Assembly (NCBI GenBank): GCA_020974905.1
Contig: CP087563.1
Span: forward strand, 3,844,001 to 3,908,000
DNA: 64,000 bases
DNA from: Planctomycetes bacterium syqfu
GTDB lineage: Bacteria; Planctomycetota; Phycisphaerae; Phycisphaerales; Phycisphaeraceae
Reading direction: 5' to 3'
The position numbers and the translations under genes were made by a program. This document shows, piece after piece, positions 14,510-58,593 of this stretch; positions within the stretch are counted from its first letter, which is position 1, and each line of letters begins with the position of its first letter. The notes under the pieces are model-generated. The model saw nothing but the letters and a program-made list of their open reading frames with translations, was not told where the DNA came from and did not search any database.

Positions 14510-14588
14510 CGTTTATCCCTATCAAAAACCAGGTTGATTCGTTCTGTCAGATCCAACGCATCCGTTGACAAATGGTATGTCTGTCGGA

Positions 14589-15335: not shown

Positions 15336-15396
15336 GACCCAACTCCTCGAACCCGATAAGAACATCGGCAGATAGAAATGACCTCTATGGTTATCT

Positions 15397-35286: not shown

Positions 35287-36929
35287 GTGACGCAGTCAAC
35301 GCAAGCGATGACAACCCGCAATGCAATGGGCACATGGTCCGGCCAGGCGTCCGACCTGGTGACCGATCCCAAGGCGATTGGCGACCTGCTTGGCCAACTC
35401 GATGTGCCGGTCTATTTGGTGATGCTCGATGGCCAACTGGCTGCGACCCCCCAAGGCCATGCCACGCTCGGTGATGATGCAGACGGCTTGCCATTGGTCG
35501 GGTTTGTCCCTGCGACATCGATGCAGCAGATGGGTGACGTGTCCTTCTGCGAAGACCACGGTCTGAAATTCGCCTATATGACCGGCGCCATGGCCAACGG
35601 CATCGCCTCCGAAGCGATGGTCATTGCTGCCGCCAAGGCAGGCATGATGGGTAGCTACGGTGCTGCAGGTCAATCGCTCCAGGCGGTCGAAGCTGCGATC
35701 GACACCATCCAAAGCGCGGTCGGTGATCTGCCTTACTGCTTTAACCTGATTCACTCACCCAACGAACCGCAACACGAAATCAACGTCGTCGAACTGTACA
35801 TCAAACGCGGCGTCACCTGTGTGGAAGCTTCGGCGTACCTTGGCATGGCATTGCCTGCTGTCCGTTACCGCACGCATGGCATTCACCGCGACAGTAGTGG
35901 CAACATCGTCACGCCCAATCGCATCATCGCCAAAGCTTCACGCACGGAAGTGGCAACGCATTGGTTTAGTCCCCCGCCGCAAAAAATGGTCGACGAACTG
36001 GTCAGCCAAGGCCATCTCACCATTGAGCAGGCTGCACTCTGCCGCGAGATTCCGATGGCTCAGGATCTCACCGCGGAAGCAGACTCCGGCGGGCATACCG
36101 ACAATCGCCCTGCGATTTCACTTTGGCCGACGATGATCGATCTGAAAAACCAGATGCAGGCCAAGTTCAACTATCAGCAAAAACTCCGCGTCGGAGCAGG
36201 CGGTGGCATCAGTACGCCAATTTCCGCAGCAGCAGCGTTGGCGATGGGGGCGGACTTCCTCGTCACCGGCTCGGTGAATCAGGCATGTGTCGAATCGGGT
36301 TCCTGTGATTATGTCCGGCAAGCACTCGCACAAGCCCAGCAAGCCGACATCACCATGGCGCCGGCAGCAGACATGTTCGAGATGGGCGTGAAACTCCAGG
36401 TCCTCAAACGCGGCACGATGTTCCCCATGCGAGCGGGCAAGTTGTATGACCTTTACAAAACATACAACAGCCTTGACGAAATTCCCGCACCCATCCGCAG
36501 CAACCTTGAAAAGACGATTTTCCTGCAACCCATTGATGATGTCTGGAATCAGACACGCGAGTTTTTCCTCAAGCGTGAACCGGCGCAAGCGCAAAAGCAG
36601 ACCGCGATCCCAAGCACAAAATGGCGTTGGTGTTCCGTTGGTATCTTGGCTTATCCAGTCGCTGGGCCAACGCGGGGGATCTCTCCCGCAAGATGGATTT
36701 CCAGATCTGGTGCGGACCTGCCATGGGTGCGTTTAACCAATGGACGACCGACACCTTTCTGGCAGACTATCAAAACCGTGACACCGTGACGGTCGGACTG
36801 AACCTGATCTACGGCGCTGCAGTAGCATCGCGTTTGACCATGTTGGCAGCCCAGGGCGTTCGCTTGGATGAATCGATCAAACAGATCAAGCCGCAGACTT
36901 CTGACGCATTGGAGGCGTATTGCAAGTGA
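35287..36929 (+). CDS. pfaD: PfaD-type trans-acting enoyl reductase (one-base frameshift)
   Basis: This FMN-dependent NPD-like TIM barrel reduces chain double bonds for the PUFA synthase. The first frame gives 35287-36597: VPATSMQQMGDVSFCEDHGL, YCFNLIHSPNEP, GVTCVEASAY and the FMN phosphate-binding GAGGGISTPIS. It would then run into unrelated residues. The true C-terminus (KMALVFRWYLGLSSRWA, then MDFQIWCGPAMGAFN) continues one frame back to a TGA at 36927, for about 547 residues in all, the family length. One extra A in the AAAA at 36593-36596 would restore a single frame. GTG 35287 follows AAGG. The stop overlaps the pfaA start (GTGA). Confidence 0.88.
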
Positions 36930-39900
36930 GTACCCCGCCCCCGGAACAATCCAAACAGAATGTCACGCCAGTCCCGCTAGCCATTGTGGGCATGGGCTGT
37001 CTGTTCCCCAAAGCTGACAACGTCGGTGCCTACTGGTCGAACATCCGCGATGGCGTTGATGCGATCACCGAAATCCCCGCGGATACGCACTGGAACCCAG
37101 CAGACTATTTTGATGATGACAAGACCGCCCCGGACAAAACCTATGCCAAGACCGGTGGCCTCATCAACAAACAATCCTTCGATCCATTGCACTACGGCAT
37201 CTCGCCCAACAACATCGAAGCGACCGACACCACGCAACTGCTGGGTATGATGGCCTGCGAACAGGCACTGCTCGATGCAGGTTACTGCACCGATAAGTCC
37301 GGCAAGGATGGTCGCGAATTTAACCGCGACCGTGCAAGTGTCATCATGGGTGTCACCGGCACACTTGAACTGGTCATCCCCCTGGGTGCTCGCCTCAGTC
37401 ATCCGCTTTGGAAAAAAGCATTGGCCGATGCAGGTGTCGATGAAGACACGGCAAAAGATGTCGTCGCACGCATCAGTGAAGGCTATGTCCCCTGGCAGGA
37501 AAATTCGTTCCCCGGTTTATTGGGCAACGTCGCTGCCGGTCGCATCGCCAATCGTTTTGATTTAGGCGGAACCAACTGCGTGGTCGATGCCGCGTGCGCC
37601 AGTTCACTGTCCGCGATGCACATGGGTGTGATGGAACTTTACACCGGTCGCTCGGACATGGTCATCACCGGTGGGCTCGACACCTTCAACGACATCTTCA
37701 TGTTCATGTGCTTCAGTAAAACACCGGCGATGAGTCCGTCGGGACATGCGCGTCCGTTCGCCAAACTTGCAGATGGCACGATTCTCGGTGAAGGCCTGGG
37801 CATCACCGTCATCAAACGTCTTGATGATGCCCAGCGTGATGGTGATCAAATCTACGCGGTCCTCAATGCCATCGGCACATCAAGCGATGGCCGCGGCAAT
37901 GCGATCTACGCTCCCAGTGATGCCGGCCAGGCCAAGTGTCTGCGTGATGCATATGACCAAGCGGGTATCACCCCGCGCGATATCGACCTCGTCGAAGCGC
38001 ATGGCACGGGCACCAAGGCTGGTGATGCCACCGAAATCAAAGCCATCACCGAAGTCTACTCCCAAGCCAGTGACGATAACTCGTGGGCGGCAATCGGTTC
38101 GGTCAAATCCATGATCGGTCACACCAAGGCTGCTGCTGGCAGTGCAGGTTTCATCAAGGCTGCCATGGCATTACATCACAAGGTGCTCCCGCCAACGATC
38201 AAGGTCGATGAACCAGCGGACATTCTCAAGCCGTATTCATCACCGTTTTACGTGAACACCGAAAAACGCCCGTGGGTCAGCCGCATGGATGGCAAACCCC
38301 GCCGCGCTGCGTTGTCCGCGTTTGGTTTTGGGGGCAGCAATTATCACGCAGTCTTGCAAGAGTATCCGCAGACCGCCAAGCCCATCGACTGGGATGGCAA
38401 AGTGTTGATCATCGCGCTTTGCGGTGATGATGCCAACACCATTGGTAAACAACTTGATGCACTGGATGCTAACGCCGATTGGAACAACCTGCGAACCGTT
38501 GCAGCCGAATCACGTAAGACATTCGACCGTCAAGCCAACGCACGTTTGATCCTCGTGATTCAGCAAGATCAAACCGACCTTGCCAAGTTGGTCAAGTCCG
38601 CCAAGACGCAGTTGGCCACCGACAAGAAGCAGTGGCAGACGCCCGATGGTGCTTTCTTTGGTAGTGGTCAACAAGCTGGCAAACTCGCTGTCCTCTTCCC
38701 CGGGCAAGGTGCTCAGTACACCGGTATGCTCCGCGACCTGGCCTGCCAATTCCCGCAGATGTTAAACGCCCTGGACTTGGGGAACGCCACCTTCGGCCAA
38801 ACCAAGCCCAACGAAAAACTCAGCGACCTGATCTACCCCATCCCTGTTTTTACGGATGAAGACAAAGCCGCCCAAGCCGCCAAACTCGGTGACACACGCA
38901 ACACGCAGCCGGCACTTGGCGCAGTCTCACTCGGTGCATGGCAGGTGTTACAACACTTTGACATCACCGCAAACTTCACCGCTGGACACAGCTTCGGCGA
39001 ACTCGTTGCCCTGCATGCAGCAGGCCGGATCTCTGCCAGCGACTTGATGAAGCTCGCCCTGGTCCGCGGGCAATTGATGTCGCAAACAAGCGAATCAGAA
39101 AGTAAAGGTTCGATGATGGCGGTCATGCTTGACAAGGCATCCGTCGAAGCGTTCCTTGCTGAACATAAACTTGATGGTCTGATCGTTGCCAACCACAATT
39201 CACCGCAACAGGTTGTGCTCTCGGGGCCGGTGGATCAAATTGACCAAGCCCAGAAACTGTTCAAAGCTCAGAAGACCCGCTGCAAGAAGTTGGCGGTTTC
39301 ATCGGCATTTCACAGTAGCTTTGTCAGTGATGCTGCAAAGCCGTTCGCCCAGGCATTGGCGGAAGTCGACTTTACCAACACGGATATAAAAGTCTTTGCC
39401 AACACCACAGCCGATAGCTATCCCGACGATGTGAACACCTGTCGCGATCTCTTAGCCAATCAGTTGGCCAAGCCGGTTCGCTTTGTGGAGCAGATTGAAA
39501 ACCTGCACAAAGCAGGCGCTCGCACCTTCATCGAAGTCGGCCCCAACCGTCACCTGGCGGGGATGGTCAGCAGTATTCTCGATGGCAAGGATCATGCGCT
39601 CTTCACACTCGATAACTCTGCAGGCCGCAAGTCCGGTCAACTTGATCTGGCGATGTTGCTTGCTGGCATTGCAAGCAGTGGGCATCACGTCCAACTCACC
39701 GCATGGGACAGCCAGTGGCTTGATGATGTCGCCAAGCAACCCAAACGCAAGAAGGGTTTCACGGTTCCCGTCTGTGGTGCCAACGCCAAACCCAAGCCGT
39801 CGAATCGCAAGTCCGTCGCCCCCAAGCCCAAAGCACAGCCGACCGCTGCACCGCAACCGACAAGTGCATCGACACCGCCCCAAAACACTGAAAAACAAGC

Positions 39901-42900
39901 TCTATCTCAACCCCTCAACACCACGAGGTCTAACAACGTGACACAACAACCCCAACCGCAAAACAGCCAGGCAGCACCTGTCAATTCGCAGGCCATGGCA
40001 TTTGCTCAGCAGAGTATTCTCGCGCTGCAGCAACTCCAGCAACAGACCGCTGCCCTGCATCACCAGTACCTGCTGGGCCAGGAAGCCAATCAGCGCACCA
40101 TCGAAACGCTGATCAATCAGCAAATGCAGCTGATGTCTCAACCCGGTACGCAAATTCCTGTGGCACCAATGCCGAACATGCAGCAGCAACCTGTCCAACA
40201 GGTCCCGATGCCGCAGTTCCCCCCCCCCGTGCAACCGCAGCAGCCCGTGTACCAGCAGCCGCAACAACCCGTCGCCCAACAGCCTGTTGCTCAACCGGCA
40301 CCGCAGCCTGCACCGCAAGCCGCTGCACCATCACCTGCTCCAGTTGTCCAACCGACCGCACCAGCTTCTCCAGTCCAAACTTCCGGCGGCGGGGGCAACT
40401 CAAAGGCCAGCGAAGTACTGCTTGAAGTCGTTGCAGAAAAGACCGGCTATCCCACCGAGATGCTCGAACTCTCCATGTCCCTCGACGAAGACCTGGGCAT
40501 CGACTCGATCAAGCGTGTGGAAATTCTCTCATCACTCCAGGAGAAAATGCCCGAAGCGCCTGCCATCAAACCCGATGACTTAAGCTCGCTGCATACGCTT
40601 CAGCAGATTGTCGATTTCCTCGACGCCAACATCTCAAGTGATGTTTCCGACACAAAGCCGCAGGTTTCCCAACCTGCGGGTCAACCCCCGGAAGCCCCGG
40701 AAGCGACTTCATCACCAACGGCACTCTCCGGTGTCAGCGAAGTGCTCCTTGAAGTCATTGCTGAGAAGACCGGCTATCCCACCGAGATGCTCGAACTTTC
40801 CATGTCCCTCGACGAAGACCTGGGCATCGACTCGATCAAGCGTGTGGAAATTCTCTCATCGCTTCAAGAGAAAATGCCCGAGGCGCCGCCGATCAAACCC
40901 GACGACTTATCGAGCTTGCAAACCTTGCAACAGATTGTCGATTTCCTGGAGAAAAACGGCCCTTTTGTGACCGCGCCGTCGCAGCAGCTCATTGATGCTG
41001 ATGCTGTGATGGCGCTTGATCAGAGCGTTGCAACCCCCAACATTCCTTTTAACTTCAAACTCGATCGTCACATCCTTGCGACCACCGAGCTTGATGCTTC
41101 GTCCCAATCACCATTGACTTTGCCCAAGGGGCAGACCGTTGTCATTGCAGACGATGGCACGGACCTGCCCGAAGAAATTGCCATGCAGTTGGCTGAACAT
41201 GATCTGCAAAGCGCAATCGTCGGCCCGCATGATGAATTGCCAGATCACACAACCGTGTGTGGCTTGATTCTCATGCTCCCGGAAACGGCAGACACACAGG
41301 AAGTCATCGACGCCTTTACATTGATGCAACAACTCGGCCCTGCACTCAAACACTCGGTCGATCAAAACGGCAGCGCCCTGCTTGCCTGCATCACCCGACT
41401 GGATGGCAAGCTGGGACTTGGCGGTGGCGCGATCCATTCGCCCATTACCGCATCGCTTGCAGGCATGGTCAAAACCGCGTCCCACGAATGGTCATCTGTC
41501 ACCTGTCGTATCATCGACATGGATGACAAAACCTCCGCAGACAACATCGCAAACCAACTGCTTAGCACCGGTCCAACGGAAGTGGGTATCAGTTCAGATC
41601 AACTTGTTCAGACGCAATTGATCGCCGAGTCGATTGATAACAAGCTTTCGGAAAAACTGCCTCTCAAAGCAGAAGACACCGTCATCGTCACGGGTGGCGC
41701 ACGTGGCGTGACTGCGGAAGTGGCCACCGCGATTGCACGCATTTACAAGTGTCGTTTGCTTCTGGTGGGTCGAAGCCCGATTCCTGAAAGTGAACCGGCA
41801 TGGTTGCGTGACGCGAAGACCGAAGCCGAAATTAAAAAAGCGATCGTTGCCAATGCGACTTCGCGCTTGATGCCCAAGGACGTTCAGGTGCGGTATCAGA
41901 AAGTCGCTGCCAACCGACAGATCGTTGAAACCCTCGGTCGCATCGAGCAAGCCGGTGGCAAGGCAACGTACGCGACCGCCGATGTCCGTAACGCCAAGGC
42001 CATCGAAGAGATTCTCGATGCAGCCCGCACGCGCGGTCCCGTTGCTGGCATCATTCACGGTGCAGGTGTCCTCGCAGATCGTCACATCGAAGACAAAACC
42101 ACCGAGCAATTCGACATGGTGTTCGGCACGAAAGTCGAAGGCTTTAACAATCTCATGCGGGCTGCAGATCGCGATGAACTCAAAGTCATCATCAACTTCT
42201 CAAGCTCCACCGGTCGCTTCGGTCGCAAAGGTCAGATCGACTACGCTGCTGCCAACGACACGCTCAACAAGCTTGCCCAGCAGCAAAAATCGCTCCGCCC
42301 CAACTGTCGCGTGCTCAGTATTAACTGGGGACCGTGGGACGGGGGCATGGTCAATGATGATCTAAAAAAACTCTTTGCTTCCGAAGGCATCCAAGTCATT
42401 CCCCTGACCGATGGTGCCAACTATCTGGCGCGTGAGATTGATACGCCTGTTGAGGGTCCGGTAGAAATTGTAATCCTGGGTCAAGGCAGCGATCTCTCGC
42501 TGAGTATGCCCAAGCTGGAAACAGCGACTGCCAAACCGCAAGCGGTTAAAGCAGGCAAACCCGCGATGCCGTTGCCGCCCTTGGCATTTGACCGTGTGGT
42601 GAGTGTGGAACAGTTGCCGATTCTCAAAGATCATGTGATGAACGCCAAGGCGGTGTTGCCTGCCGCATTGATGTTGGAGTATCTCGGTGCTGCTGCCATT
42701 GCGGAGAACCCGGGCATGTCCATGATTGGCGTTGCCGATTTCACCGTGTTTAAAGGTATTATTGTTGATCGCAATGAAGCACTGACGCTGCATGTCCACG
42801 CGGACTTTGCGCAAGCGGATGGTGATGTCAACAAAGCCGTCACCGAAATTCGCAGCGGTGATGACAGCAGGATCCTTCACGCCCGCGCGACGATCCTGCT

Positions 42901-43438
42901 TGGTCAACTCACCCATGCACCTGCAGCATCAGACTTGTCACAACCGCAGATGCCTTACCCGTTGACCGGTGACAAAATTTACACGACGCCCGGCCTGCTG
43001 TTTCATGGTGAACAACTCCATGCCATCGTCGGCGTGGATGCCTGTGATGATATGGGAATCAGCGGACGCTTAAGCAGTGCACCATCACCGTCACAGTGGA
43101 TCAGCCAACCCACTCGCACCACGTGGCTGACCGATCCATTGCTCATCGATGGCGTGTTCCAGTTGATGATTCTCTGGACTCAGCAGAAGCTTGATCAACC
43201 ATCACTTCCCACGAAAATCGAACGGTATGAGCAGTATGTCGACCGCCTGCCATCATCGGGTGTGAAATGTGTCTGTCGCATCGTCAAACAGACTGCCCAC
43301 GAGATCACCGTCAATGTCGAATTGCTCGACAACTTCGGCACGCTGGTTGCCACGATCACCGGTTACCACTGCATCGTCGACAGCTCATTGCGTGATGCTT
43401 TCCTCGACAACCAGTTGGGACAGAAAGTGCAGGCATAA
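36926..43438 (+). CDS. pfaA: PUFA synthase subunit PfaA: KS-AT-ACP-ACP-KR-DH
   Basis: This 2170-residue iterative synthase builds polyunsaturated acyl chains. KS: Cys224 in DAACASS, His359 in EAHGTGT, His399. AT: Ser689 in GHSFGE. A Gln/Pro-rich linker spans about 980-1160. There are two ACPs with phosphopantetheine sites Ser1194 and Ser1303 (LGIDSIKR), 109 residues apart and nearly identical. KR at about 1580-1810 has TGGARGVT and INFSSSTGRFG...YAAAN. The C-terminal hotdog DH has His1903 in LKDHVMNAKAVLPAA. GTG 36926 is chosen because it overlaps the pfaD stop and GGAGG lies 10 bases upstream. ACP modification needs a PPTase not present here. Two ACPs is few; other Pfa proteins carry about four to nine. 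Confidence 0.93.
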   Translation: MSTPPPEQSKQNVTPVPLAIVGMGCLFPKADNVGAYWSNIRDGVDAITEIPADTHWNPADYFDDDKTAPDKTYAKTGGLINKQSFDPLHYGISPNNIEATDTTQLLGMMACEQALLDAGYCTDKSGKDGREFNRDRASVIMGVTGTLELVIPLGARLSHPLWKKALADAGVDEDTAKDVVARISEGYVPWQENSFPGLLGNVAAGRIANRFDLGGTNCVVDAACASSLSAMHMGVMELYTGRSDMVITGGLDTFNDIFMFMCFSKTPAMSPSGHARPFAKLADGTILGEGLGITVIKRLDDAQRDGDQIYAVLNAIGTSSDGRGNAIYAPSDAGQAKCLRDAYDQAGITPRDIDLVEAHGTGTKAGDATEIKAITEVYSQASDDNSWAAIGSVKSMIGHTKAAAGSAGFIKAAMALHHKVLPPTIKVDEPADILKPYSSPFYVNTEKRPWVSRMDGKPRRAALSAFGFGGSNYHAVLQEYPQTAKPIDWDGKVLIIALCGDDANTIGKQLDALDANADWNNLRTVAAESRKTFDRQANARLILVIQQDQTDLAKLVKSAKTQLATDKKQWQTPDGAFFGSGQQAGKLAVLFPGQGAQYTGMLRDLACQFPQMLNALDLGNATFGQTKPNEKLSDLIYPIPVFTDEDKAAQAAKLGDTRNTQPALGAVSLGAWQVLQHFDITANFTAGHSFGELVALHAAGRISASDLMKLALVRGQLMSQTSESESKGSMMAVMLDKASVEAFLAEHKLDGLIVANHNSPQQVVLSGPVDQIDQAQKLFKAQKTRCKKLAVSSAFHSSFVSDAAKPFAQALAEVDFTNTDIKVFANTTADSYPDDVNTCRDLLANQLAKPVRFVEQIENLHKAGARTFIEVGPNRHLAGMVSSILDGKDHALFTLDNSAGRKSGQLDLAMLLAGIASSGHHVQLTAWDSQWLDDVAKQPKRKKGFTVPVCGANAKPKPSNRKSVAPKPKAQPTAAPQPTSASTPPQNTEKQALSQPLNTTRSNNVTQQPQPQNSQAAPVNSQAMAFAQQSILALQQLQQQTAALHHQYLLGQEANQRTIETLINQQMQLMSQPGTQIPVAPMPNMQQQPVQQVPMPQFPPPVQPQQPVYQQPQQPVAQQPVAQPAPQPAPQAAAPSPAPVVQPTAPASPVQTSGGGGNSKASEVLLEVVAEKTGYPTEMLELSMSLDEDLGIDSIKRVEILSSLQEKMPEAPAIKPDDLSSLHTLQQIVDFLDANISSDVSDTKPQVSQPAGQPPEAPEATSSPTALSGVSEVLLEVIAEKTGYPTEMLELSMSLDEDLGIDSIKRVEILSSLQEKMPEAPPIKPDDLSSLQTLQQIVDFLEKNGPFVTAPSQQLIDADAVMALDQSVATPNIPFNFKLDRHILATTELDASSQSPLTLPKGQTVVIADDGTDLPEEIAMQLAEHDLQSAIVGPHDELPDHTTVCGLILMLPETADTQEVIDAFTLMQQLGPALKHSVDQNGSALLACITRLDGKLGLGGGAIHSPITASLAGMVKTASHEWSSVTCRIIDMDDKTSADNIANQLLSTGPTEVGISSDQLVQTQLIAESIDNKLSEKLPLKAEDTVIVTGGARGVTAEVATAIARIYKCRLLLVGRSPIPESEPAWLRDAKTEAEIKKAIVANATSRLMPKDVQVRYQKVAANRQIVETLGRIEQAGGKATYATADVRNAKAIEEILDAARTRGPVAGIIHGAGVLADRHIEDKTTEQFDMVFGTKVEGFNNLMRAADRDELKVIINFSSSTGRFGRKGQIDYAAANDTLNKLAQQQKSLRPNCRVLSINWGPWDGGMVNDDLKKLFASEGIQVIPLTDGANYLAREIDTPVEGPVEIVILGQGSDLSLSMPKLETATAKPQAVKAGKPAMPLPPLAFDRVVSVEQLPILKDHVMNAKAVLPAALMLEYLGAAAIAENPGMSMIGVADFTVFKGIIVDRNEALTLHVHADFAQADGDVNKAVTEIRSGDDSRILHARATILLGQLTHAPAASDLSQPQMPYPLTGDKIYTTPGLLFHGEQLHAIVGVDACDDMGISGRLSSAPSPSQWISQPTRTTWLTDPLLIDGVFQLMILWTQQKLDQPSLPTKIERYEQYVDRLPSSGVKCVCRIVKQTAHEITVNVELLDNFGTLVATITGYHCIVDSSLRDAFLDNQLGQKVQA
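40411..40947 (+). repeat. Tandem ACP-coding repeat in pfaA
   Basis: Two units of about 210 bp (40411-40620 and 40738-40947) lie 327 bp apart, exactly 109 codons. They encode nearly identical ACPs and stay close at the DNA level including third positions, so I infer recent duplication or ongoing gene conversion. Such arrays expand and contract easily by recombination. Confidence 0.85.
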
Positions 43439-43440
43439 GC

Positions 43441-46400
43441 GTGACGGATCGGATTGCCATCGTTGGTATGGGTGGGATTTTTCCCGATGCACATGACCTG
43501 AATACGTTTTGGGAAAACATTCTCAATGGTCATTCTGCAGCCAAACCCGCCCCTGCAAATCGCTGGACTTTATCAGCAGATGATGCACTCTCCGAAGACA
43601 CCGCGCCCGATCGTGTCTATTCACATCGCGCCTGCTTTGTCGAACATTTCAAACTCGATTTATCGCAGTACGATCTTGATGATGAACTCGCCGACCTCAT
43701 CGCGCAATTGGATGTGATGAACCACCTGGCAATCCATGCGGGACATCAGGCGTGGCAAGACGCGCAGATGGACTCCATCGATCACAACCGCGTGGGCATC
43801 ATCATCGGTAACATTGCGCTACCCACCGACAGTGTTTCGCAACATGCCCAACAAGTCATCGGCCCGGCCTATGCAGCAGCGCTCTCCAATATCCTCGGCC
43901 ACAAACTGGATTGGCAACACACCCCCACGCACGTCCTGAATCGCTATGTCGCTGGACTCCCTGGTGGATTGCTTGCTCAAACGTTGGGGATTGGTGGTGG
44001 CGCACACACGCTTGATGCCGCATGCGCTTCATCACTCTACGCACTGAAATATGCCTGTGATGAACTGCATGCCGGACGTGCCGACGCGATGATTGCTGGC
44101 GGACTATCACGGCCGGATTGCCTGTATACGCAAATGGGTTTTAGCCAACTTCATGCACTCTCCAAAACCGGCGTGTGCGCCCCCTTCTCCGACCGTGCTG
44201 ATGGCCTGGTCGTCGGTGAAGGTGCGGGCATGTTGATCCTCAAACGTCTTGAAGACGCGATTGAACATGGCGATCACATCTATGCCACCATCGCAGGCAT
44301 TGGCTTATCCAACGATATCACGGGCAACATCATGGCTCCCGATGTCGAAGGCCAGGGACGTGCGATGCGTAAAGCCTACGAACTTGCAGGCTGGAAACCT
44401 TCCGACGTCGATCACATCGAATGTCATGGCACGGGTACGCCGGTCGGTGATAACGTCGAATTCACGAGTCTCAAAAATTTATGGTCCAACGAATCGTCAC
44501 GAGACACACGCTGTGTGATCGGTTCAGTCAAGAGTAACGTCGGACACCTGCTTACTGGCGCAGGCGGTGCTGGACTGATCAAGACACTGCTTGCCATCAA
44601 ACACAAGACACTGCCACCGACTGCGAATTTCACTTCGCCGAACCCAAAGATGGGGATTCCTGAAAGTCCGTTTGAAGTGCTCAGCCAGGCACGTTCGTGG
44701 AACACACCTGAAAATACACCGCGTAAAGCAGCGGTCAGTGCGTTTGGTTTTGGTGGCATCAATGCTCACGTGTTGCTTGAAGAATACGTCGAACCCAAGG
44801 CTGTGAGTATCACGTCTGATCTTCCGGGGGCCAAAGAGTCCGACGAGCCCATTGCGATCGTTGGCATGGCAGGTCACTTTGGACCCTACAAAAACCTCGA
44901 CGATTTGCGACGGTTGTTTATTGATGGTGAGAAACAAGCTGCGTTACCCATCGGCCAAACATGGGGTGTTGCGTTGGCCAACAAGACCGGCCATGTGATT
45001 GAGGACATTGCCATCGAGCTTGGGCGATTCCCGATCCCGCCGCTGGAGTTGCAGGACATGCTTCCTCAGCAACTGTTGATGTTGCTTGCTGCTGCCAATG
45101 CACTCAAGGATGCTGGGATTGAAGAGACCGATGCACCACGATTGGACATGGGTGTTTACATCGGCATCGGCCTTGATTTGAACACCACCAATTTCCACCT
45201 GCGTTGGGAGCTTGCCAATCAAGCTAAACGTTGGGCGGATCAGTTGGGAGTGCCTTACCCTGAGCAGTGGCTTGATGATTTGCGCGATGCGATGAATCCG
45301 CCGCTGACCGCCAACCGCACGATGGGTGCCTTGGGCGGCATCGTTGCTTCGCGCGTGGCTCGGGCGTTTAAAGTCGGTGGCCCCAGTTTCACGATCTCCA
45401 GCGAACAGACATCCACGTTGCATGCCATCACACAGGCGGTCACCTCACTGCGTCGTGGTGAGATTAATAGTGCGATTGTCGGTGCCGTCGAGCAAGGTTG
45501 TGATGTCCGACATGTTGCAACCGACAGCAGCAATACCCCCTGCTGCGATGGTGCAGGCGCGGTGATTCTCAAACGACTATCCGATGCACGAGAAGATGGT
45601 GATACCATCTATGCGGTGATCGATCAGACGTCGCGGTTTGGTGTGATTGATAGCGATACTGCGGTACCTGTAGATGCAATGGACGATCTGGGTGATCTTG
45701 GCCCTGCGACTTCCATCGCTTCGACCATCAAGGCAGCGTTGTGTTTGTATCACCGTTTTGACCTGCAAAACAAGGGATATTGGCTCGCGGACCAATCCGA
45801 AGAAGTCCGCCAATGCCTCATCGCAACCGACAGCATTGATGGCAACACCGCAAGCATCACGCTCTGTGAAGCGGACGTTTGCCCGACGGTTGAATTGGAC
45901 ATCAACGACCAAAGCACATTCGATCTCACCGATGAAGTCTCCGAAGGTAAGATTGCATTCGTCTTCCCGGGGGCCGGCAATCAGTTTGCCAACATGGGCA
46001 AAGACTTGTGTACCAGGTTCTCGCATGTCATCGAACAGATGCATGTCGAAAACGACAAACTCAAATCGCAATTCGCTTCCGGCCAATTCTGGGACGGCAC
46101 GCCGGTTTCGCAGATCAGTCACAAGGATGTGATCTTCGGGCAAGTCTGCCTGGGCACCATGATCAGCGATATCGCGTTATCGCTGGGCATCAAACCCGAT
46201 GCGATGATCGGCTACAGTCTCGGTGAGACCACGAGCATGTTCGCATCACGCAGTTGGACCACGCGTGATGAAATGCTTGAGCGCATGAACAACTCAAGCT
46301 TGTTTACCACGGACCTGGCAGGCCCCTGTGATGCAGCACGCAAGACCTGGCAGCTTGATGACGATGAACCGGTGGACTGGGTGGTCACCGTGGTACCCCG

Positions 46401-49400
46401 CAGCCCGGAAGTGATTCGCGAAACACTTAAACATTTTGACCGTGCTTATCTGCTGATCATCAACAAGGCAGATGAATGTGTCATCGGCGGTGATCGCCTG
46501 CAAGTCCGCCAAGCGGTGCAGCAGTTGGGGGCAAGCTGGCATCCGGTGGAAGGTGTGACAACGGTGCATTGTAAGGTCGCCCATGCGATTCGTGATGCAT
46601 ATCGCGATTTGCATCTCATGCCAACCGATCCACCTGCGGACATTGCGTTTTACAGTGGGATTGCAGGCAAGTCGTATCAAGTCACCAGTGAGTCAATTGC
46701 GGATTCAATTGTCGGGCAGGCAATGGAGCCGTTTGATTTTTCGAAGGTGATTGAAGCTGCCTATGCCGATGGCGTGCGGGTGTTCATTGAGATGGGGCCG
46801 GGCAATTCGTGCACGCGGTTGATCGATCAGATTCTTGGTGACCGTGAACATCTGGCCGTGAGTTTGTGTCGTGAAAAGCAGGACAATGTTGCGACACTGT
46901 TGAAGGTCGCGCGAACGATTGAAGCGATGGGACAGGAGATTGTCTTGCCGATCGCGCCATCAATTCAAGAAAAACAACTCAAGACGATTCACGTGACAGC
47001 GATGCGACGCGGTTTTGAAATCCCGCAACCGCCCTTTGTGATTGATAAACAGGAAGAACACGTGGCAGAACCGGTGATGCGTGAGGAAGTAATCGAACAG
47101 GTCCGTGATGAGCCTAGCTCACGCTCGGACCGGGCTGACACAGCCCAGCTCGCTGGTGTGAATACGAACGTTGCGATGGATAACACTGTTGTTGCGCAAG
47201 CCATTGCCGCGCAGCAGGCACACGTTGCAACACAACAAACCTTCATGCGTGTGTCACAAAATCTCAACAACACCATGGCCAAAGCGATCAGCATGTATCA
47301 CGCGGCGATGGGTAACGGTGATTTTTCTGCGGACCTGCAACAAGTCGCACCGATGCAGGTGCAGGTCACACAGACCACCACTGACCGTGAGCCGATACTG
47401 GATCGCAACCAGTGTATGGAGTTTGCCATTGGTTCAATCGGTAAAGCACTCGGCGAAAAGTTTGCGGAGATTGATGCACACCCGACGCGCGTGCGTTTGC
47501 CTGATGAACCGTTGATGCTTGTTGATCGCATCATGGCAATTGAAGGCGAAGCCTGCTCGATGACTTCCGGCCGCGTCGTGACCGAACACGACATTCTTCC
47601 GGGGGCGTGGTATCTGGATGGCGGTGTGATCCCCACGTGTATCGCAGTCGAAGCGGGACAGGCGGACCTCTTCCTTTCTGGATACCTGGGTATCGACTTT
47701 ATCACCAAGGGCAAAGCGGTCTACCGGTTACTCGATGCTGAAGTCACCTTCCATGCTCCTCTTCCGGGGGCGGGCAAGACGATTGTCTACGACATTCACA
47801 TTGACGAATTCTTCCGACAGGATGATACGTATCTCTTCCGCTTCCGCTTTGATGCAACGGTGGACGGCAAGTTATTTTTGACCATGCACAAAGGCTGTGC
47901 AGGCTTCTTTACCCAGGCTGAACTGGATGCAGGTCAAGGCATTGTCTTGACCAAGCTGGATAAACAACCTGCTGATGGAATCAAGGCAGGTGGTTTTGAA
48001 CCGTTAACCAATTTGTCCGGCGAAGAAAGCTACTCCACCGAGCAGATCAATGCGCTGCGTCATGGCAATCTGGCTGCCTGCTTTGGTGATGTCTTTGCCA
48101 ATCTTGGGTTGCAGCAGGCCAAGGGACTTCCGGGGGCCAACGGTGGTCGGATGAATCTGGTACATCGTATTCTGTCGATGAATCCGGACGGCGGACGCTT
48201 CGGACTTGGGCAGATTGTTGGTGAAGCGGACATTCATCCTGATGACTGGTTTATCACCTGCCACTTCTGTGATGACCAGGTCATGCCCGGCACGTTGATG
48301 TACGAGTGTTGTCTGCACACGCTGCGCGTTTACCTGCTTCGCCTGGGTTGGGTCGGTGAAGAAACCGAGTTTCTTTACGAACCCAAACCCGGCATCCCCG
48401 GCCAACTCAAATGTCGCGGGCAAGTCCTGGCGAGCACGAAGAAAGTCTGGTACGAAATCACCGTCAAGGAGATCGGCTATGACGAAACTGCTAAACCCTA
48501 CGCTATCGCAGACGCCTTGATGTATGGGGATGGCAAACCCATCGTGCAGATGAAAAACATGTCGTTGCAACTTTCAGGTTTGACCAAACAGGCTTTGGAA
48601 GCGCGTTGGGGTAAAGTCAATGACGGCCCGCGCAGAATCGCTCAAAGCAGCTCATCTGCGGGCTTGGGTAAGACAGATAAGCCCACGCTGTTCGACAATG
48701 CCTCGATTGTTGCCTTTGCGGAAGGGAATCCGTCGGAGGCGTTTGGTGATCGATATAAGGTGTTCGACAACGAACGCAAGATCGCCCGTTTGCCACGTGC
48801 GCCGTACAAGTTCCTGGATCGCATTGTGCACATTGAAAACTGTGAACAATGGAAACTTGCTGCTGGTGGTGTGATTGAAGCTCAATACGATGTGCCAACA
48901 GACGAGTGGTATTTCGCGCAGGATCGTCAACCGGTGATGCCGTTTGCCGTGTTGTTGGAAGTCGCACTTCAACCCTGCGGTTGGCTAGCAGCCTATCTGG
49001 GTTCGGCACTCACCAGTGAGACCGACCTGCGATTCCGAAACCTCGGCGGTGATGCGGTCCAACTGCTCCCCGTCATGCCTGACATCGGCACACTCACCAC
49101 CCGCATCAAGATCACCAACGTCAGCCAATCCGGTGGCATGATCATCCAACACTTTGACATGCACACCTATGCTGACCGTGGTGATGTCTACAAAGGCACC
49201 ACGTACTTCGGCTTCTTCACCGCTGATGCACTGGCCAACCAAGTCGGCATCCGCGAAGCGCAAGTCTACGAACCGACCGATCGTGAATTCGTCCGCACCG
49301 AGCCATTCGACTATCCGACGACCGCCCCCTATCCCGATGACATGATGCGCATGCTCGACCGCATCGTCGTCTTCGATCCGGCAGGCGGTCCCAACGGTCT

Positions 49401-49761
49401 TGGCATAATCCGTGGTGAGATGGATGTGAATCCCGATCGCTGGTTCTTTAAAGCACACTTCTACCAAGACCCCGTCTGCCCCGGCTCACTGGGGTTGGAG
49501 TCGTTCCTGCAACTGCTCAAGGTCTATGCAGTCGATCGCTGGGGGGCATCGGAGCAAACGCAATTTGAGTGCATGGCAATAGGTGAAAAACACAAGTGGG
49601 TTTACCGCGGGCAGATCATTCCCGCAGACTCACTGGTCACCGTGCAGGCTGTCATCAAGGCGGTCGATGATGCGACACACACAATCGTCGCAGACGGATT
49701 CCTCATCGTTGATGGGCGTGTGATTTATCAGATGATCGACTTTGCGATTCGCGCTCGGTAA
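43441..49761 (+). CDS. pfaC: PUFA synthase subunit PfaC: KS-CLF-AT-DH-DH
   Basis: This 2106-residue protein starts with a GTG two bases after the pfaA stop. Domains in order: KS with Cys195 in DAACASS; chain-length-factor-like KS where that Cys is replaced by Gln656 (SSEQTST); AT with Ser926 in GYSLGE; a linker; then two FabA-like dehydratases, each a double hotdog, with catalytic-type His in ITCHFCDDQVMPG and KAHFYQDPVCPGS. The DHs place the cis double bonds. The internal AT replaces the separate PfaB of gamma-proteobacteria. From memory, myxobacterial pfa3 proteins have this order plus a C-terminal acyltransferase (AGPAT), which is absent here. Confidence 0.93.
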   Translation: MTDRIAIVGMGGIFPDAHDLNTFWENILNGHSAAKPAPANRWTLSADDALSEDTAPDRVYSHRACFVEHFKLDLSQYDLDDELADLIAQLDVMNHLAIHAGHQAWQDAQMDSIDHNRVGIIIGNIALPTDSVSQHAQQVIGPAYAAALSNILGHKLDWQHTPTHVLNRYVAGLPGGLLAQTLGIGGGAHTLDAACASSLYALKYACDELHAGRADAMIAGGLSRPDCLYTQMGFSQLHALSKTGVCAPFSDRADGLVVGEGAGMLILKRLEDAIEHGDHIYATIAGIGLSNDITGNIMAPDVEGQGRAMRKAYELAGWKPSDVDHIECHGTGTPVGDNVEFTSLKNLWSNESSRDTRCVIGSVKSNVGHLLTGAGGAGLIKTLLAIKHKTLPPTANFTSPNPKMGIPESPFEVLSQARSWNTPENTPRKAAVSAFGFGGINAHVLLEEYVEPKAVSITSDLPGAKESDEPIAIVGMAGHFGPYKNLDDLRRLFIDGEKQAALPIGQTWGVALANKTGHVIEDIAIELGRFPIPPLELQDMLPQQLLMLLAAANALKDAGIEETDAPRLDMGVYIGIGLDLNTTNFHLRWELANQAKRWADQLGVPYPEQWLDDLRDAMNPPLTANRTMGALGGIVASRVARAFKVGGPSFTISSEQTSTLHAITQAVTSLRRGEINSAIVGAVEQGCDVRHVATDSSNTPCCDGAGAVILKRLSDAREDGDTIYAVIDQTSRFGVIDSDTAVPVDAMDDLGDLGPATSIASTIKAALCLYHRFDLQNKGYWLADQSEEVRQCLIATDSIDGNTASITLCEADVCPTVELDINDQSTFDLTDEVSEGKIAFVFPGAGNQFANMGKDLCTRFSHVIEQMHVENDKLKSQFASGQFWDGTPVSQISHKDVIFGQVCLGTMISDIALSLGIKPDAMIGYSLGETTSMFASRSWTTRDEMLERMNNSSLFTTDLAGPCDAARKTWQLDDDEPVDWVVTVVPRSPEVIRETLKHFDRAYLLIINKADECVIGGDRLQVRQAVQQLGASWHPVEGVTTVHCKVAHAIRDAYRDLHLMPTDPPADIAFYSGIAGKSYQVTSESIADSIVGQAMEPFDFSKVIEAAYADGVRVFIEMGPGNSCTRLIDQILGDREHLAVSLCREKQDNVATLLKVARTIEAMGQEIVLPIAPSIQEKQLKTIHVTAMRRGFEIPQPPFVIDKQEEHVAEPVMREEVIEQVRDEPSSRSDRADTAQLAGVNTNVAMDNTVVAQAIAAQQAHVATQQTFMRVSQNLNNTMAKAISMYHAAMGNGDFSADLQQVAPMQVQVTQTTTDREPILDRNQCMEFAIGSIGKALGEKFAEIDAHPTRVRLPDEPLMLVDRIMAIEGEACSMTSGRVVTEHDILPGAWYLDGGVIPTCIAVEAGQADLFLSGYLGIDFITKGKAVYRLLDAEVTFHAPLPGAGKTIVYDIHIDEFFRQDDTYLFRFRFDATVDGKLFLTMHKGCAGFFTQAELDAGQGIVLTKLDKQPADGIKAGGFEPLTNLSGEESYSTEQINALRHGNLAACFGDVFANLGLQQAKGLPGANGGRMNLVHRILSMNPDGGRFGLGQIVGEADIHPDDWFITCHFCDDQVMPGTLMYECCLHTLRVYLLRLGWVGEETEFLYEPKPGIPGQLKCRGQVLASTKKVWYEITVKEIGYDETAKPYAIADALMYGDGKPIVQMKNMSLQLSGLTKQALEARWGKVNDGPRRIAQSSSSAGLGKTDKPTLFDNASIVAFAEGNPSEAFGDRYKVFDNERKIARLPRAPYKFLDRIVHIENCEQWKLAAGGVIEAQYDVPTDEWYFAQDRQPVMPFAVLLEVALQPCGWLAAYLGSALTSETDLRFRNLGGDAVQLLPVMPDIGTLTTRIKITNVSQSGGMIIQHFDMHTYADRGDVYKGTTYFGFFTADALANQVGIREAQVYEPTDREFVRTEPFDYPTTAPYPDDMMRMLDRIVVFDPAGGPNGLGIIRGEMDVNPDRWFFKAHFYQDPVCPGSLGLESFLQLLKVYAVDRWGASEQTQFECMAIGEKHKWVYRGQIIPADSLVTVQAVIKAVDDATHTIVADGFLIVDGRVIYQMIDFAIRAR

Positions 49762-49789
49762 AGCTTTGGGATTCGTGCGATTTGTTTTT

Positions 49790-50091
49790 AACGCGAAGGC
49801 ACGAAGGACACGAAGTTCAAGACAGTTCTTTGAGAGCGTTTCCAATCCATCTTTAGTGGTTCGTTGCAGCTGTTTTGAAAGGCACCATTCCAAGGCAACC
49901 GAGCCAAAATGGCTCGGCTATTTATACATAGACCGACCATCTTGGCCGGGTCTCAAACGCAATAAATCAGATGCAATAAACCACTAGTTTTAAGACAGCA
50001 TCGCTTTGATCAATACCAATGCGCATAGATAGAGAAGCAAGTCATCTTTGACTTTTCTTCGCGACCTTCGTGACCTTCGCGCCTTCGTGTT
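49790..50091. repeat. 302-bp unit bounded by 26-bp inverted repeats
   Basis: Arms 49790-49815 (starting AACGCGAAGG) and 50066-50091 (ending CCTTCGTGTT) are inverted copies with three mismatches, 250 bp apart. The interior has no gene. It resembles a small non-autonomous element inserted between the convergent pfa and ole genes. Confidence 0.5.
49899..49917. terminator. Terminator-like hairpin after pfaC
   Basis: CCGAGCCA and TGGCTCGG form a perfect 8-bp stem around a three-base loop, 138 bases after the pfaC stop. No good T run follows, so function as an intrinsic terminator is uncertain. Confidence 0.4.
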
Positions 50092-50116
50092 AATGAAATA
50101 CCCCAACAACAAGCCA

Positions 50117-51076
50117 TCAAACAAACTGCTTGATCAACGGCACGACATCCTCATGGGCGTCTTCGAGAATATAGTGACCGGCGTCCTGGAACTTGCGAAC
50201 CGTTGCGTTTGGGAAGCGGTCGGTCCAGCCTTTCAGGAAGTGATGATCGAAGACGAAGTCCTTCATGCCCCAACAGATGAGCATGGGTTTATCTGCGAAC
50301 TTGCTGAGGTTCTCATCGGTGTTGGTGATGATGTCATAGCCACGATCACCGGGCTTAAGCGGGATATCCTGCACGAAGCGGTGGACGGCGATGCGGTTGG
50401 CCCAACTGTCATAAGGCAACACAAAACCGCGCGCCACATCGGATGTCATGGGATGTCGGGTGACACAGTTTTTCACGCCACCTTTGACAAAGCCGTTGAA
50501 CCCTCGGACGAGTAATGCACCAAGGGGTGACCGGCAGATGCCGATCTGCCAGGGCAGGGGTTTATCTTTGGGCAGTCCGAAGGCTGCGGTGTTCAGGACG
50601 ACGAGTTTGGTGATGCGGTCTGCGTGGCGAAGCGCCCAGGTGCTGCCGATCATGCCTCCCCAGTCGTGGACGACGAGCGTGATGTCGTTACCGATGTCCA
50701 GCGATTCGATGAGGGCATCAAGATTGTCAACGCGGTTTTTGAGTGTGTAGTCGTATTGGTCATCGGTGGGTTTGTCGGAGAGGCCCATGCCGATGTGATC
50801 GGGGACGATGCAGCGGTGTGTTTTGCTGAGGGCGTTGGCCAGTCGACGGTAATAGAACGACCAGGTCGGATTGCCATGCACCATGACGACCGCGGGTGGC
50901 CCCGGAAGATCAGAATCGGGTTGGCGTGGTCCCTGATCGAGGTAATGCAATTGGAGATCGCTGCCATCTTTGCCAGTGACGGGGAACCAATTGGATTGGA
51001 ATTTATAATCGGGGAGGCTCAGGTGATCCGTGGTGGATGGTCGAGCGTTTGAGGCTGTGTTCACTTCGCTTACCAC
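50117..51076 (-). CDS. oleB: OleB-like alpha/beta-hydrolase (beta-lactone decarboxylase type)
   Basis: This 319-residue haloalkane-dehalogenase-like alpha/beta-hydrolase has HGNPTWSF (oxyanion and halide-side Asn69/Trp72), nucleophile Asp138 in VVHDWGG and His301 in DAGHYILED. In the Ole pathway OleB converts the beta-lactone made by OleC into a cis-alkene plus CO2. The OleB call rests largely on context: its start overlaps the oleA stop by 7 bases on the same strand. Taken alone, it could be a haloalkane dehalogenase. It lies convergent to the pfa genes. Confidence 0.82.
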   Translation of the reverse strand: MVSEVNTASNARPSTTDHLSLPDYKFQSNWFPVTGKDGSDLQLHYLDQGPRQPDSDLPGPPAVVMVHGNPTWSFYYRRLANALSKTHRCIVPDHIGMGLSDKPTDDQYDYTLKNRVDNLDALIESLDIGNDITLVVHDWGGMIGSTWALRHADRITKLVVLNTAAFGLPKDKPLPWQIGICRSPLGALLVRGFNGFVKGGVKNCVTRHPMTSDVARGFVLPYDSWANRIAVHRFVQDIPLKPGDRGYDIITNTDENLSKFADKPMLICWGMKDFVFDHHFLKGWTDRFPNATVRKFQDAGHYILEDAHEDVVPLIKQFV

Positions 51077-52275
51077 TCCCAGCCGAGCATGAGGCAGTTG
51101 AGGCCTGAGCCGATGCCCAGGAATCCAACGCGGTCACCGGGCTTGAGGAACTTGCGTTGCTCAGCCAGAGCTGCGGTTAACGGGAGTGACACCGTGCCGA
51201 TGTTGCCAAGGTAAGGATAGGTTGAATATTCCTTTTCAGGCGGGATGCCAAGAGCGCGGAGGATGGTATCGCGATGACCACTGCCGACCTGGTGGCAGAT
51301 GATCTTGTCGACATTGTCGACCGCCCAACCCATGCGGGAGAGGAAGCTGCCCCAGGTTCGCACGCCCAGTTCCACGCCATGCTTGAGCACAGCGACGGAG
51401 TCGGTCTGCATGAACTGCGTCAACGCAGCAGGGAGTTTTTCCTTGGGCATCAGGTTGGCAAGCACCGGCGGGAGTTTCTCGCTGGTGTGTTCCATCAGTT
51501 CCTTGAGCGTCTCGGGAATCGTGTCCGGCTGCATGATCTCATCGAGCGCCAGCTTCAGACGATCAGGTGAAAAGACCATTTTGCCCATCTGGATCGGTGA
51601 TAAGGTTACACCCCAGCGACAGAGTTTGTGATGTTCGGGTGCTGCCTTGGAAGTCGCACCACTGAGTCGCGGGCGGTCTTTGGTGCCGAACGAGCCATCG
51701 GTTAAAAGGACAGCCGCGGCACCGGAGCCACCGGTGAGGGTTGCCAGCGAACTTGAGTACATTTCCATGGTCGGATTTTCGAGCATCCGCTGGATCATGA
51801 TTTCGTTGATCTCACGTGATGACTCGCAACTGACGACCATACCTGCACGGATCTGGCCAAGCTCAATACGGTTGGCGACATCAATGATGCCGTTAAGGAC
51901 ACCTAAGCAGGCGTTGGAGATATCGTAGATAAAGGCATCGTTGGTGATACCCAAAGCGTCGGCAACCACGCATGCCGTAGCAGGCTCAAACTGTTCACGG
52001 CAGACACCGGTGTAGACAAGGACTTCGATGTCCTTGACCTGCACATTGGACTGCTGGAGTGCTTTTTGAGCTGCAGCCGATGAGCCTTCTGAGAGTGTGG
52101 TCCCTTCGTCCCACCAGCGACGCTCTTCGATGCCGGTGAGGGCTTTGAGCTGTCCCTGAGACATGTGCAATTTTTCGTACATGGGCGCAAGTCGACCTTC
52201 CAGTTCGTCGCTGGTGACGACGACCGGGCCGAGCTTGTAGCCGATGGACTCAATTTGGACGCGGGAGTATCTCAT
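51070..52275 (-). CDS. oleA: OleA-like head-to-head acyl condensing enzyme
   Basis: OleA is a thiolase-fold enzyme that condenses two acyl-CoA chains into a 2-alkyl-3-ketoacid. Cys123 (NACLGVLNG), Glu97 (EQFEPATA), His328 (ICHQVGSGH) and Asn358 (YLGNIGTVS) match the known Cys/Glu/His/Asn set; spacings Glu-Cys (26) and His-Asn (30) equal those of Xanthomonas OleA as I recall it. The Cys-to-His interval is about 60 residues longer, owing to an insertion near 225-300 containing PIQMGKMVFSPDRLKL. The 401 residues compare with about 340 in typical OleA. The gene is first in its operon, 226 bases from a divergent glycosyltransferase gene. Confidence 0.9.
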   Translation of the reverse strand: MRYSRVQIESIGYKLGPVVVTSDELEGRLAPMYEKLHMSQGQLKALTGIEERRWWDEGTTLSEGSSAAAQKALQQSNVQVKDIEVLVYTGVCREQFEPATACVVADALGITNDAFIYDISNACLGVLNGIIDVANRIELGQIRAGMVVSCESSREINEIMIQRMLENPTMEMYSSSLATLTGGSGAAAVLLTDGSFGTKDRPRLSGATSKAAPEHHKLCRWGVTLSPIQMGKMVFSPDRLKLALDEIMQPDTIPETLKELMEHTSEKLPPVLANLMPKEKLPAALTQFMQTDSVAVLKHGVELGVRTWGSFLSRMGWAVDNVDKIICHQVGSGHRDTILRALGIPPEKEYSTYPYLGNIGTVSLPLTAALAEQRKFLKPGDRVGFLGIGSGLNCLMLGWEW

Positions 52276-52501
52276 AAGCGCAGCGTATTCTAGTGAATTA
52301 TCGACCCATTAGCCAGAATTGATCGAAAAAAAGAATCAACAAGTCCTGATGTTTGTCGGATTGTGCAGCATGTGTAGCGGGATATGAACGCTATCTTCTT
52401 CACTGAACGTATGTTTGGATCTATCAGGCAAATAAAAAACCACTCATCCTGTTCATCAAAAAACTGAAATCCGAGTCAAGCTGCGGTATCATGCTCCGTT
52501 G

Positions 52502-53275
52502 ATGACACAGTCCCCCTCGATGAACCGATTTCACCTGCACGATGGACGCCCAGCCCGGTGTCTGGCCATAGTGCCGGCTTACAATGAGTCAGGCTCGATC
52601 GCCAAAGTGGTCAACGGTCTGAATGAGCACCTGCCGGAGTTGGATGTGGTGGTGATTGATGATGGTTCGGTGGACCGGACGCACCAGTATGTCCCAGAGT
52701 CGGCAACGGTGATCCGCCTGCCGTTCAACTTGGGGATCGGCGGTGCCATGCAGACCGGCTATCGCTATGCGGATCAATTTGGTTATGACGTAGCGATCCA
52801 GGTCGATGGTGACGGGCAGCATCCGCCGACCGAGGTCGCCCGACTCATCGAGCACTTGCTGAGCAATGATTATGACCTGGTGGTGGGTTCGCGTTTCAAG
52901 GACACCATTGCTTATCGCCAATCCAAATCACGCATGCTTGGGATTCACTGCCTGCAATTCTGGATTCGCCTGCTCACCGGCAGAAGCTTCTCGGACTGCA
53001 CCAGTGGCTTTCGCGCTGCCAATCGTCATGTGATCGACTGCTACGCCCATTGGTATCCTGATGACTATCCTGAACCGGAGGTGCTGGTGCTTCTGACCAA
53101 TCAGAAAATGCGCATCGAAGAGTTACAGGTTCACATGGAACAGCGAAGCACAGGGCAAACCAGCATCCCGCTGACCCGGGGTGTGTTCTACGTGGTCAAG
53201 GTGGCTGTCGCGGTGTTGCTGGATATGGTTCGTGATCCCTGGCCTCACCGCAAACACAAGGAGATCACCCCATGA
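52502..53275 (+). CDS. Family 2 glycosyltransferase, DPM1-like
   Basis: This protein of about 257 residues has the GT-A glycosyltransferase motifs VIDDGSVDRT and QVDGDGQH (DxD metal site), a GGAMQTGYRYA segment and DCTSGFRA. It resembles dolichyl/undecaprenyl-phosphate mannosyl- or glucosyl-transferases, and the following gene encodes a DUF2304 protein, a known partner. It overlaps that gene by 4 bases (ATGA). It probably makes a lipid-linked sugar for cell-envelope glycan or glycoprotein modification. ATG 52502 is taken as the start; a TTG is one codon earlier. Confidence 0.85.
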   Translation: MTQSPSMNRFHLHDGRPARCLAIVPAYNESGSIAKVVNGLNEHLPELDVVVIDDGSVDRTHQYVPESATVIRLPFNLGIGGAMQTGYRYADQFGYDVAIQVDGDGQHPPTEVARLIEHLLSNDYDLVVGSRFKDTIAYRQSKSRMLGIHCLQFWIRLLTGRSFSDCTSGFRAANRHVIDCYAHWYPDDYPEPEVLVLLTNQKMRIEELQVHMEQRSTGQTSIPLTRGVFYVVKVAVAVLLDMVRDPWPHRKHKEITP

Positions 53276-53673
53276 TTCGCAGCCTTGTGCTTGTTGGTTT
53301 TGGTTTGTTGCTGCTGTATCTTTCGCTGCGTCGCCTGCGTCAACTGCGGATGCAGGAACGCTGGATGCTGCTGTTTTTTGTCACCGGCCTGCCGTTTTTG
53401 GTGCTGGCTGTCTGGCCCGATGGGATCGTGTGGTTGTCCAATCAGATGAATATGGAAAAGCCCACCCTCATGGTCTTCTGCCTGGGTGCGTTCACCATCC
53501 TGCTACTACTCAAACTTTTTTCGATTATCAGTGTCCAGCAACGTCAGATCACCACGCTGGCCCAGACCGTGGGCATCCTCCGTAAACAGCTTGACGCTAT
53601 CGCCCCAAAAGACGCATCAGACGATACGCCCACACCACCTTCTCAACATTCACTCGATGAATCAGCCGACTGA
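53272..53673 (+). CDS. DUF2304 membrane protein
   Basis: This 133-residue protein has three hydrophobic segments (LVLVGFGLLLLYLSLR, WMLLFFVTGLPFLVLAV and MVFCLGAFTILLLLKLF) followed by a helical, polar tail. This matches DUF2304 proteins that accompany DPM1-like transferases. It starts within the transferase stop (ATGA) and so is coupled to it. Its last 77 bases overlap the end of the convergent glycosyltransferase gene on the other strand. Confidence 0.85.
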   Translation: MIRSLVLVGFGLLLLYLSLRRLRQLRMQERWMLLFFVTGLPFLVLAVWPDGIVWLSNQMNMEKPTLMVFCLGAFTILLLLKLFSIISVQQRQITTLAQTVGILRKQLDAIAPKDASDDTPTPPSQHSLDESAD

Positions 53674-57786: not shown

Positions 57787-58593
57787 ATGACACAACCCAT
57801 TGCATCCGACAACCAGGCGATCCGCAAACTCATTCGATCCTACGAACGGGCGACGGGGCTGACGAGTTGTTTCCGACCTACCGGGCCGGTATTTGAGCAG
57901 CTTGGTGGCTTGACGGGATTGCATGTCTCACCGTTCTGCGTGATCCCCAGGCGGGATCAGATGGATCTGTGTCGTCGGGATGATGCAGCGGATTTGCATG
58001 AACAGTTCGCCCAGCCGACTTTGCCTTTGGTGCGGACCTGTCATGCGGGAGCCAGTGAGATCATCCTGCCGGTGCATTGGCAGAATCAGTTGGTGTTGGT
58101 GGTGTTCTTTGGACAGTTCCGACATAGCGATGATCAACCGTCGTCTCTGCCACGCTGGTCGGAAGCGAAGATCAAGCATGCCATCCAGTTGCTGACGACG
58201 CTGCAAAGTCACCTGCTTGCGATTTATCAGCAGCGATTAGCCAACCGACCCAAGCCTGACGATCCGAGATTGGAGCAGGTCATCGACTGGTTGACGATGC
58301 ACATCTCGGACGACCCATCATTGGAGGCGTTGGCCAACATGCTTTGCGTCTCACCCACATGGGCAAGCCACCTGATCCGACAGTTGGCAGGCAAGCCGTT
58401 TACCCAACTCAAGGACGACATTCGCATCGAACGTGCCAAGCATCTGCTGGCCAACTCACCGTTGAAGGTTGCCAGCATTGCAGCGCAGTTGGGCATGGAT
58501 GATGCGAACTATTTCAGTCGGTTCTTCAAACGCAAAACCGGCACCACCGCGTCGAACTACCGCAAGGTGCATCAGGTGACGTGGGATGTGTGA
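57787..58593 (+). CDS. AraC-family regulator with PocR-like sensor domain
   Basis: This 268-residue protein has an N-terminal PocR-like ligand domain (residues about 10-130, with DLCRRDDAADLHEQF, RTCHAGASEIILPV and VVFFGQFRHSD) and a C-terminal AraC helix-turn-helix pair (LEALANMLCVSPTWASHLIR, DDANYFSRFFKRKTGTTASN). PocR domains bind small hydrocarbon derivatives such as diols in other systems. It is divergent from the double-FAD oxidoreductase and is the likely activator of that gene. Confidence 0.85.
   Translation: MTQPIASDNQAIRKLIRSYERATGLTSCFRPTGPVFEQLGGLTGLHVSPFCVIPRRDQMDLCRRDDAADLHEQFAQPTLPLVRTCHAGASEIILPVHWQNQLVLVVFFGQFRHSDDQPSSLPRWSEAKIKHAIQLLTTLQSHLLAIYQQRLANRPKPDDPRLEQVIDWLTMHISDDPSLEALANMLCVSPTWASHLIRQLAGKPFTQLKDDIRIERAKHLLANSPLKVASIAAQLGMDDANYFSRFFKRKTGTTASNYRKVHQVTWDV

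Follow-up and report, generated by a model that had tools for sequence, protein, structure and literature searches.

Shewanella has its pfa and ole genes in two distinct operons and encodes PfaB as a protein of its own. When the S. pealeana pfa genes and oleA are expressed in E. coli a 31:8 ketone is formed and OleA draws on the Pfa synthase; with OleBCD the route continues to the 31:9 olefin (PMC6463001). Geobacter bemidjiensis has a tandem pfaD-A-B-C-oleABCD-pfaE cluster and produces hentriacontanonaene (C31:9) (PMC4882568), an organization corresponding to the Type I secondary lipid synthase of PMC3098273. The locus described here has the same gene set as that of G. bemidjiensis: pfaD opens it, pfaB and pfaC are fused (Type I), and the ole genes come behind the pfa genes. 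It differs in that oleBA is convergent in this genus, oleCD are 2.1 Mb away and the phosphopantetheinyl transferase (PPTase) gene is elsewhere. We propose, with a probability of roughly 0.8, that the locus contains the chain-building and first-step genes of a Pfa-Ole pathway predicted to make a very long polyunsaturated hydrocarbon.

The window, by which we mean the whole 64,000-nucleotide stretch analysed (G000:C1:3844001-3908000), is part of a host genome assembled as one contig of 7.38 Mb. ORF predictions and family scans agree with the layout given in the first-pass annotation, in which three plus-strand pfa genes end 355 bases from an overlapping minus-strand oleB-oleA pair (a 7-base overlap, 51070-51076); one correction is that pfaD is frameshifted in the assembly. 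The two gene sets adjoin, but they are convergent and not collinear (Table 1). Promoter and terminator scans gave results near chance, and pattern matches in the gap region are not clearly above the shuffled expectation.

Table 1. Coordinates and features of the pfa-ole locus, in window positions.
Feature	Position	Strand	Notes
pfaD (enoyl reductase)	35287..36929	+	ORF as read 35287-36789, frameshifted; intact frame to 36929
pfaA	36926..43438	+	KS - MAT - two ACPs - KR - PS-DH; Pfam, TIGR02813, motif count
pfaBC fusion ('pfaC')	43441..49761	+	KS - CLF - AT (PfaB-like) - two FabA-type dehydratase regions
Convergent intergenic gap, 355 bases	49762..50116		one terminator-like hairpin at 49899-49917
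oleB (alpha/beta hydrolase)	50117..51076	-	family scans; HGNP, HDWGG, GHYILED motifs
oleA (head-to-head thiolase)	51070..52275	-	NF006720; C123, E97, H328, N358 conserved (alignments)
OleA insertion, residues about 223-288	51412..51609	-	not present in solved OleA structures; modelled as a helical arm at low confidence

Several other genes lie beyond oleA. A GT2 glycosyltransferase gene, overlapping a DUF2304 gene, is divergent from oleA (52499-53673), and these flanks are kept in the congener G201. Further to the right is a gene (54737-57649) for a 970-aa protein with several matches to FAD-dependent oxidoreductases and a Rossmann motif at around residue 20 and another at around residue 310, and beside it an AraC/PocR-type regulator (57787-58593).

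The family scan names pfaD by TIGR02814 (496 bits) and pfaA by TIGR02813 (1508 bits), and the solved PDB relatives of the pfaD product are PfaD proteins (4yx6 and 6lkc). The two ACPs of PfaA were counted by their GIDSIKRVEI motif, and the gene likely starts at a GTG at 36926, where the ORF tool gives a TTG at 36920. The pfaBC product is 84% identical to that of the congener, its domains are supported by Pfam, TIGR02816 and FabA domains, and its dehydratase regions contain the motifs HF..D..MPG and HF..D..CPG. Together, PfaD, PfaA and PfaBC constitute the gene set of a Pfa-type PUFA synthase, with the pfaBC fusion being Type I-like.

The pfaD lesion consists of one A missing from an A5 run at about 36593-36597, such that the TIGR02814 match is split over two frames; each of the 29 other genomes with pfa in our class sample gives an unbroken match. 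Alignment shows five A at this position both in G201 and in the MAG NAT22, the source of locus L120. The OleA proteins of NAT22 and the window are identical. In the intact frame the end of pfaD at 36929 overlaps the GTG start of pfaA, and the three pfa genes are thus coupled. The one-base deletion and the broken-up cluster could be taken as signs of a decaying locus, with a real frameshift and a Pfa synthase inactive in this strain. However, 20 of the 24 differences from NAT22 past the lesion share one codon position in the intact frame, suggesting that this frame was under selection until recently, and pfaA, pfaBC, oleA and oleB all remain open, with 80-96% identity to the congener. A homopolymer is also a typical site of sequencing error. 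Decay therefore seems unlikely, and because the two related genomes are intact we read the lesion as a probable sequencing error or else a very recent mutation.

The oleA gene matches the OleA model PRK09258/NF006720 at 488 bits (cut-off 285), and solved structures of OleA, 3fk5 and 3row among them, align with its product. These two, along with 4ktm and 5vxh, are structures of Xanthomonas campestris OleA, to which the window protein is closest among solved relatives when the whole core is compared. OleA of X. campestris condenses both saturated and unsaturated fatty acids (PMC7064751). The catalytic cysteine has the same number, C123, as in Shewanella OleA. No second OleA was found in the host genome, where there is only a weak match at another ketoacyl-synthase III gene; a PF08545 search of the genome did not retrieve the window oleA. 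The oleB product is an alpha/beta hydrolase that in family scans is nearest to haloalkane dehalogenases, the superfamily to which OleB belongs, and in relatives oleB comes after oleA.

Window OleA is about 66 residues longer than solved OleA at residues 223-288, and its insertion is also longer than in Geobacter-type OleA. Relatives have between about 14 and 68 residues here, with lengths of 66-68 seen only in the window's clade, including its Gammaproteobacteria with the same cluster. An AlphaFold model has a confident core (mean pLDDT 85) and a helical arm of low confidence (pLDDT <50 at residues 243-282), with no stable fold predicted for the insertion. The existence of linked genomes with 14-residue loops rules out a long insertion as a requirement for pfa linkage, and any role of the insertion in binding the Pfa synthase is speculation.

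We scored OleA and PfaD against model cut-offs in a sample of 298 genomes of the class, and found OleA above cut-off in 48 and PfaD in 30; OleC was found in 50, in 49 of them above cut-off. All 30 PfaD genomes contain both OleA and OleC (hypergeometric 5e-29, computed ignoring relatedness), none of the 298 has pfa without ole, and 18 of the 48 OleA-positive genomes have ole without pfa. Of the 65 genomes sampled from the window's taxonomic order, PfaD or OleA is above cut-off in only four, all of which have both. This strict co-occurrence is a hint that the Pfa synthases of the class serve hydrocarbon rather than fatty acid synthesis. Synteny in the class had been proposed at the outset as a check. 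Of the 30 pfa-positive genomes, 13 have PfaD and OleA no more than about 17 kb from each other on one contig, four (G002, G038, G124 and G296) have them far apart on one contig, and 13 have them on separate contigs.

The order pfaD-pfaA-pfaC-oleA is unidirectional in every linked class genome mapped except in the window genus, and in part of these oleA is followed by oleB and oleC, in some by oleD as well; G066, G269 and many of the named loci described below have the fully collinear order pfaD-pfaA-pfaBC-oleA-oleB-oleC-oleD. Within the window genus oleBA is inverted and oleCD lie apart from it, at a site that the two species share, and the flanks of the locus are common to the genus and not shared with G297 or G066. 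That this oleCD site is also shared by G297, which represents a genus of the same family and has its oleCD on a separate contig, found no support, since the alignment covers oleCD but not their flanks. It is the breaking up of a formerly collinear operon, by inversion and scattering, that is particular to the window genus.

A wider view comes from 80 named genome loci nearest by OleA, which were picked by OleA similarity and so are not a census of all bacteria. In 65 of the 74 loci testable for adjacency, pfaC immediately precedes oleA on its strand, often with a 4-base overlap. Of the nine scored as lacking this arrangement, three (L167, L177 and L179) were missed only through upstream over-extension of the oleA ORF. 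The oleB, oleC and oleD genes are also present in 47 of the 65, and at least 23 named loci have a PPTase gene near the cluster end, usually directly after oleD. The loci are from Planctomycetota, Desulfuromonadales, Gammaproteobacteria, Verrucomicrobiota and Elusimicrobiota. The first-pass annotation had regarded pfa-ole linkage as exceptional, with ole usually away from pfa; within this OleA lineage it is instead what is usually found, and it has already been published (PMC3098273, PMC4882568).

Some of the named loci have peculiarities of their own. A Y-family DNA polymerase gene (IMS domains, Pfam) is situated between oleA and oleB in L123 (11269-12375), and one is inferred at the same coordinates in L124 from ORF position and length; both hosts are Thiotrichaceae-type Gammaproteobacteria. 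In L174, from Candidatus Uabimicrobium amorphum, pfaD (14529-16049) follows oleD and is not at the cluster start. L137 and L190 are MAGs with pfa-ole clusters titled Kuenenia stuttgartiensis and Akkermansia muciniphila, labels that look doubtful; the gene map of L137 is the same as that of loci titled Planctomycetaceae (L136 and L146).

Quick maximum-likelihood trees, with SH-aLRT support only, place the window genus in a 13-row group with G297, G066, G210, G098 and the Thiotrichaceae-type Gammaproteobacteria in both the OleA and OleC trees, with support of 97 for OleC (starred) and only 92 for OleA. The PfaC tree contains the same group minus G098, for which no PfaC was available. Window OleC, though unlinked, groups with the linked OleC of relatives, supporting dispersal of one ancestral cluster, and the matching OleA, OleC and PfaC groups indicate that the relocated oleCD are of the same lineage as the linked oleCD. 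The OleC tree led us to reject a separate acquisition of oleCD. These groupings also support transfer of a putative ancestral cluster between phyla.

That pfa and ole act in one pathway, as was first suggested from their position, is supported by their adjacency, their co-occurrence without exception in the class sample and their shared gene-tree groups. Alternatively, the pfa genes could make polyunsaturated fatty acid for membrane lipids while OleA acts mainly on FAS II chains, the adjacency being historical. The class genomes with ole and no pfa would be in keeping with this, as would the four with the two sets far apart. Against it stand the lack of pfa without ole in the 298 genomes, the close abutment of pfaC and oleA in most named loci and the matching trees, and we regard it as quite improbable.

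Searching the genome for oleC, oleD and a PPTase, as the first-pass annotation had advised, located all three. The oleC gene (1,770,999-1,772,735) is a 583-aa frame with a score of 699 bits (cut-off 478), and is overlapped by oleD, which runs to 1,773,739; both are intact with family motifs and are at the same chromosomal site in the congener. The sole PPTase found is Sfp-type, at 5.04 Mb, and is 33-39% identical to cluster-borne PPTases. The arrangement of oleABCD in one cluster is the usual one, but the chemistry does not require it, and OleB, OleC and OleD are all encoded in the same genome as OleA. With these genes found, the pathway is complete in gene content. Of the two options offered for the oleC and oleD not seen beside oleAB, the first, that they lie elsewhere, is correct. 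The other, that with oleC and oleD missing the pathway ends at a polyunsaturated ketone or OleB acts otherwise, draws on the separation of oleCD from oleAB and on the spontaneous decarboxylation by which OleA alone gives a ketone (PMC6463001), but is very hard to sustain given intact oleCD conserved in position, and neither end point is needed.

In the proposed Pfa-Ole pathway, the PPTase would arm the PfaA ACPs, and PfaA, PfaBC and PfaD would assemble all-cis polyene chains with a length of about C16. OleA would take two such chains from the synthase ACPs, much as the Pfa synthase feeds OleA in Shewanella (PMC6463001; for the window by homology), and condense them head to head; OleD would then reduce the beta-keto acid, OleC would form the beta-lactone, and OleB would decarboxylate it to the olefin. 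The product is probably a very long polyene, C31:9-like or a close homologue, with the chain length predicted by homology. Counting against this prediction, P. profundum has both operons and no hydrocarbon was detected in it (PMC6463001), pfaD is frameshifted in the assembly, and the pfaDAC, oleAB and oleCD groups are not co-transcribed here. As a consequence of the oleBA inversion oleAB must have its own promoter, raising the possibility of regulation apart from pfa. A broader proposal, that the Pfa synthases of the class are dedicated to hydrocarbon, that the inversion uncoupled oleAB expression and that the OleA insertion is a Pfa-ACP docking arm, we consider doubtful as a combination.

Because the enzyme set is normally encoded in one operon and is only rearranged here, the system is essentially a known one; what is new is the arrangement, inverted and scattered over three chromosomal sites, and the location of the missing oleC, oleD and PPTase genes is now settled. 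The pfaD-pfaA-pfaBC-oleABCD(-PPTase) unit is widespread over several phyla and has probably moved between them as one unit, and it can later be broken up with all of its parts kept.
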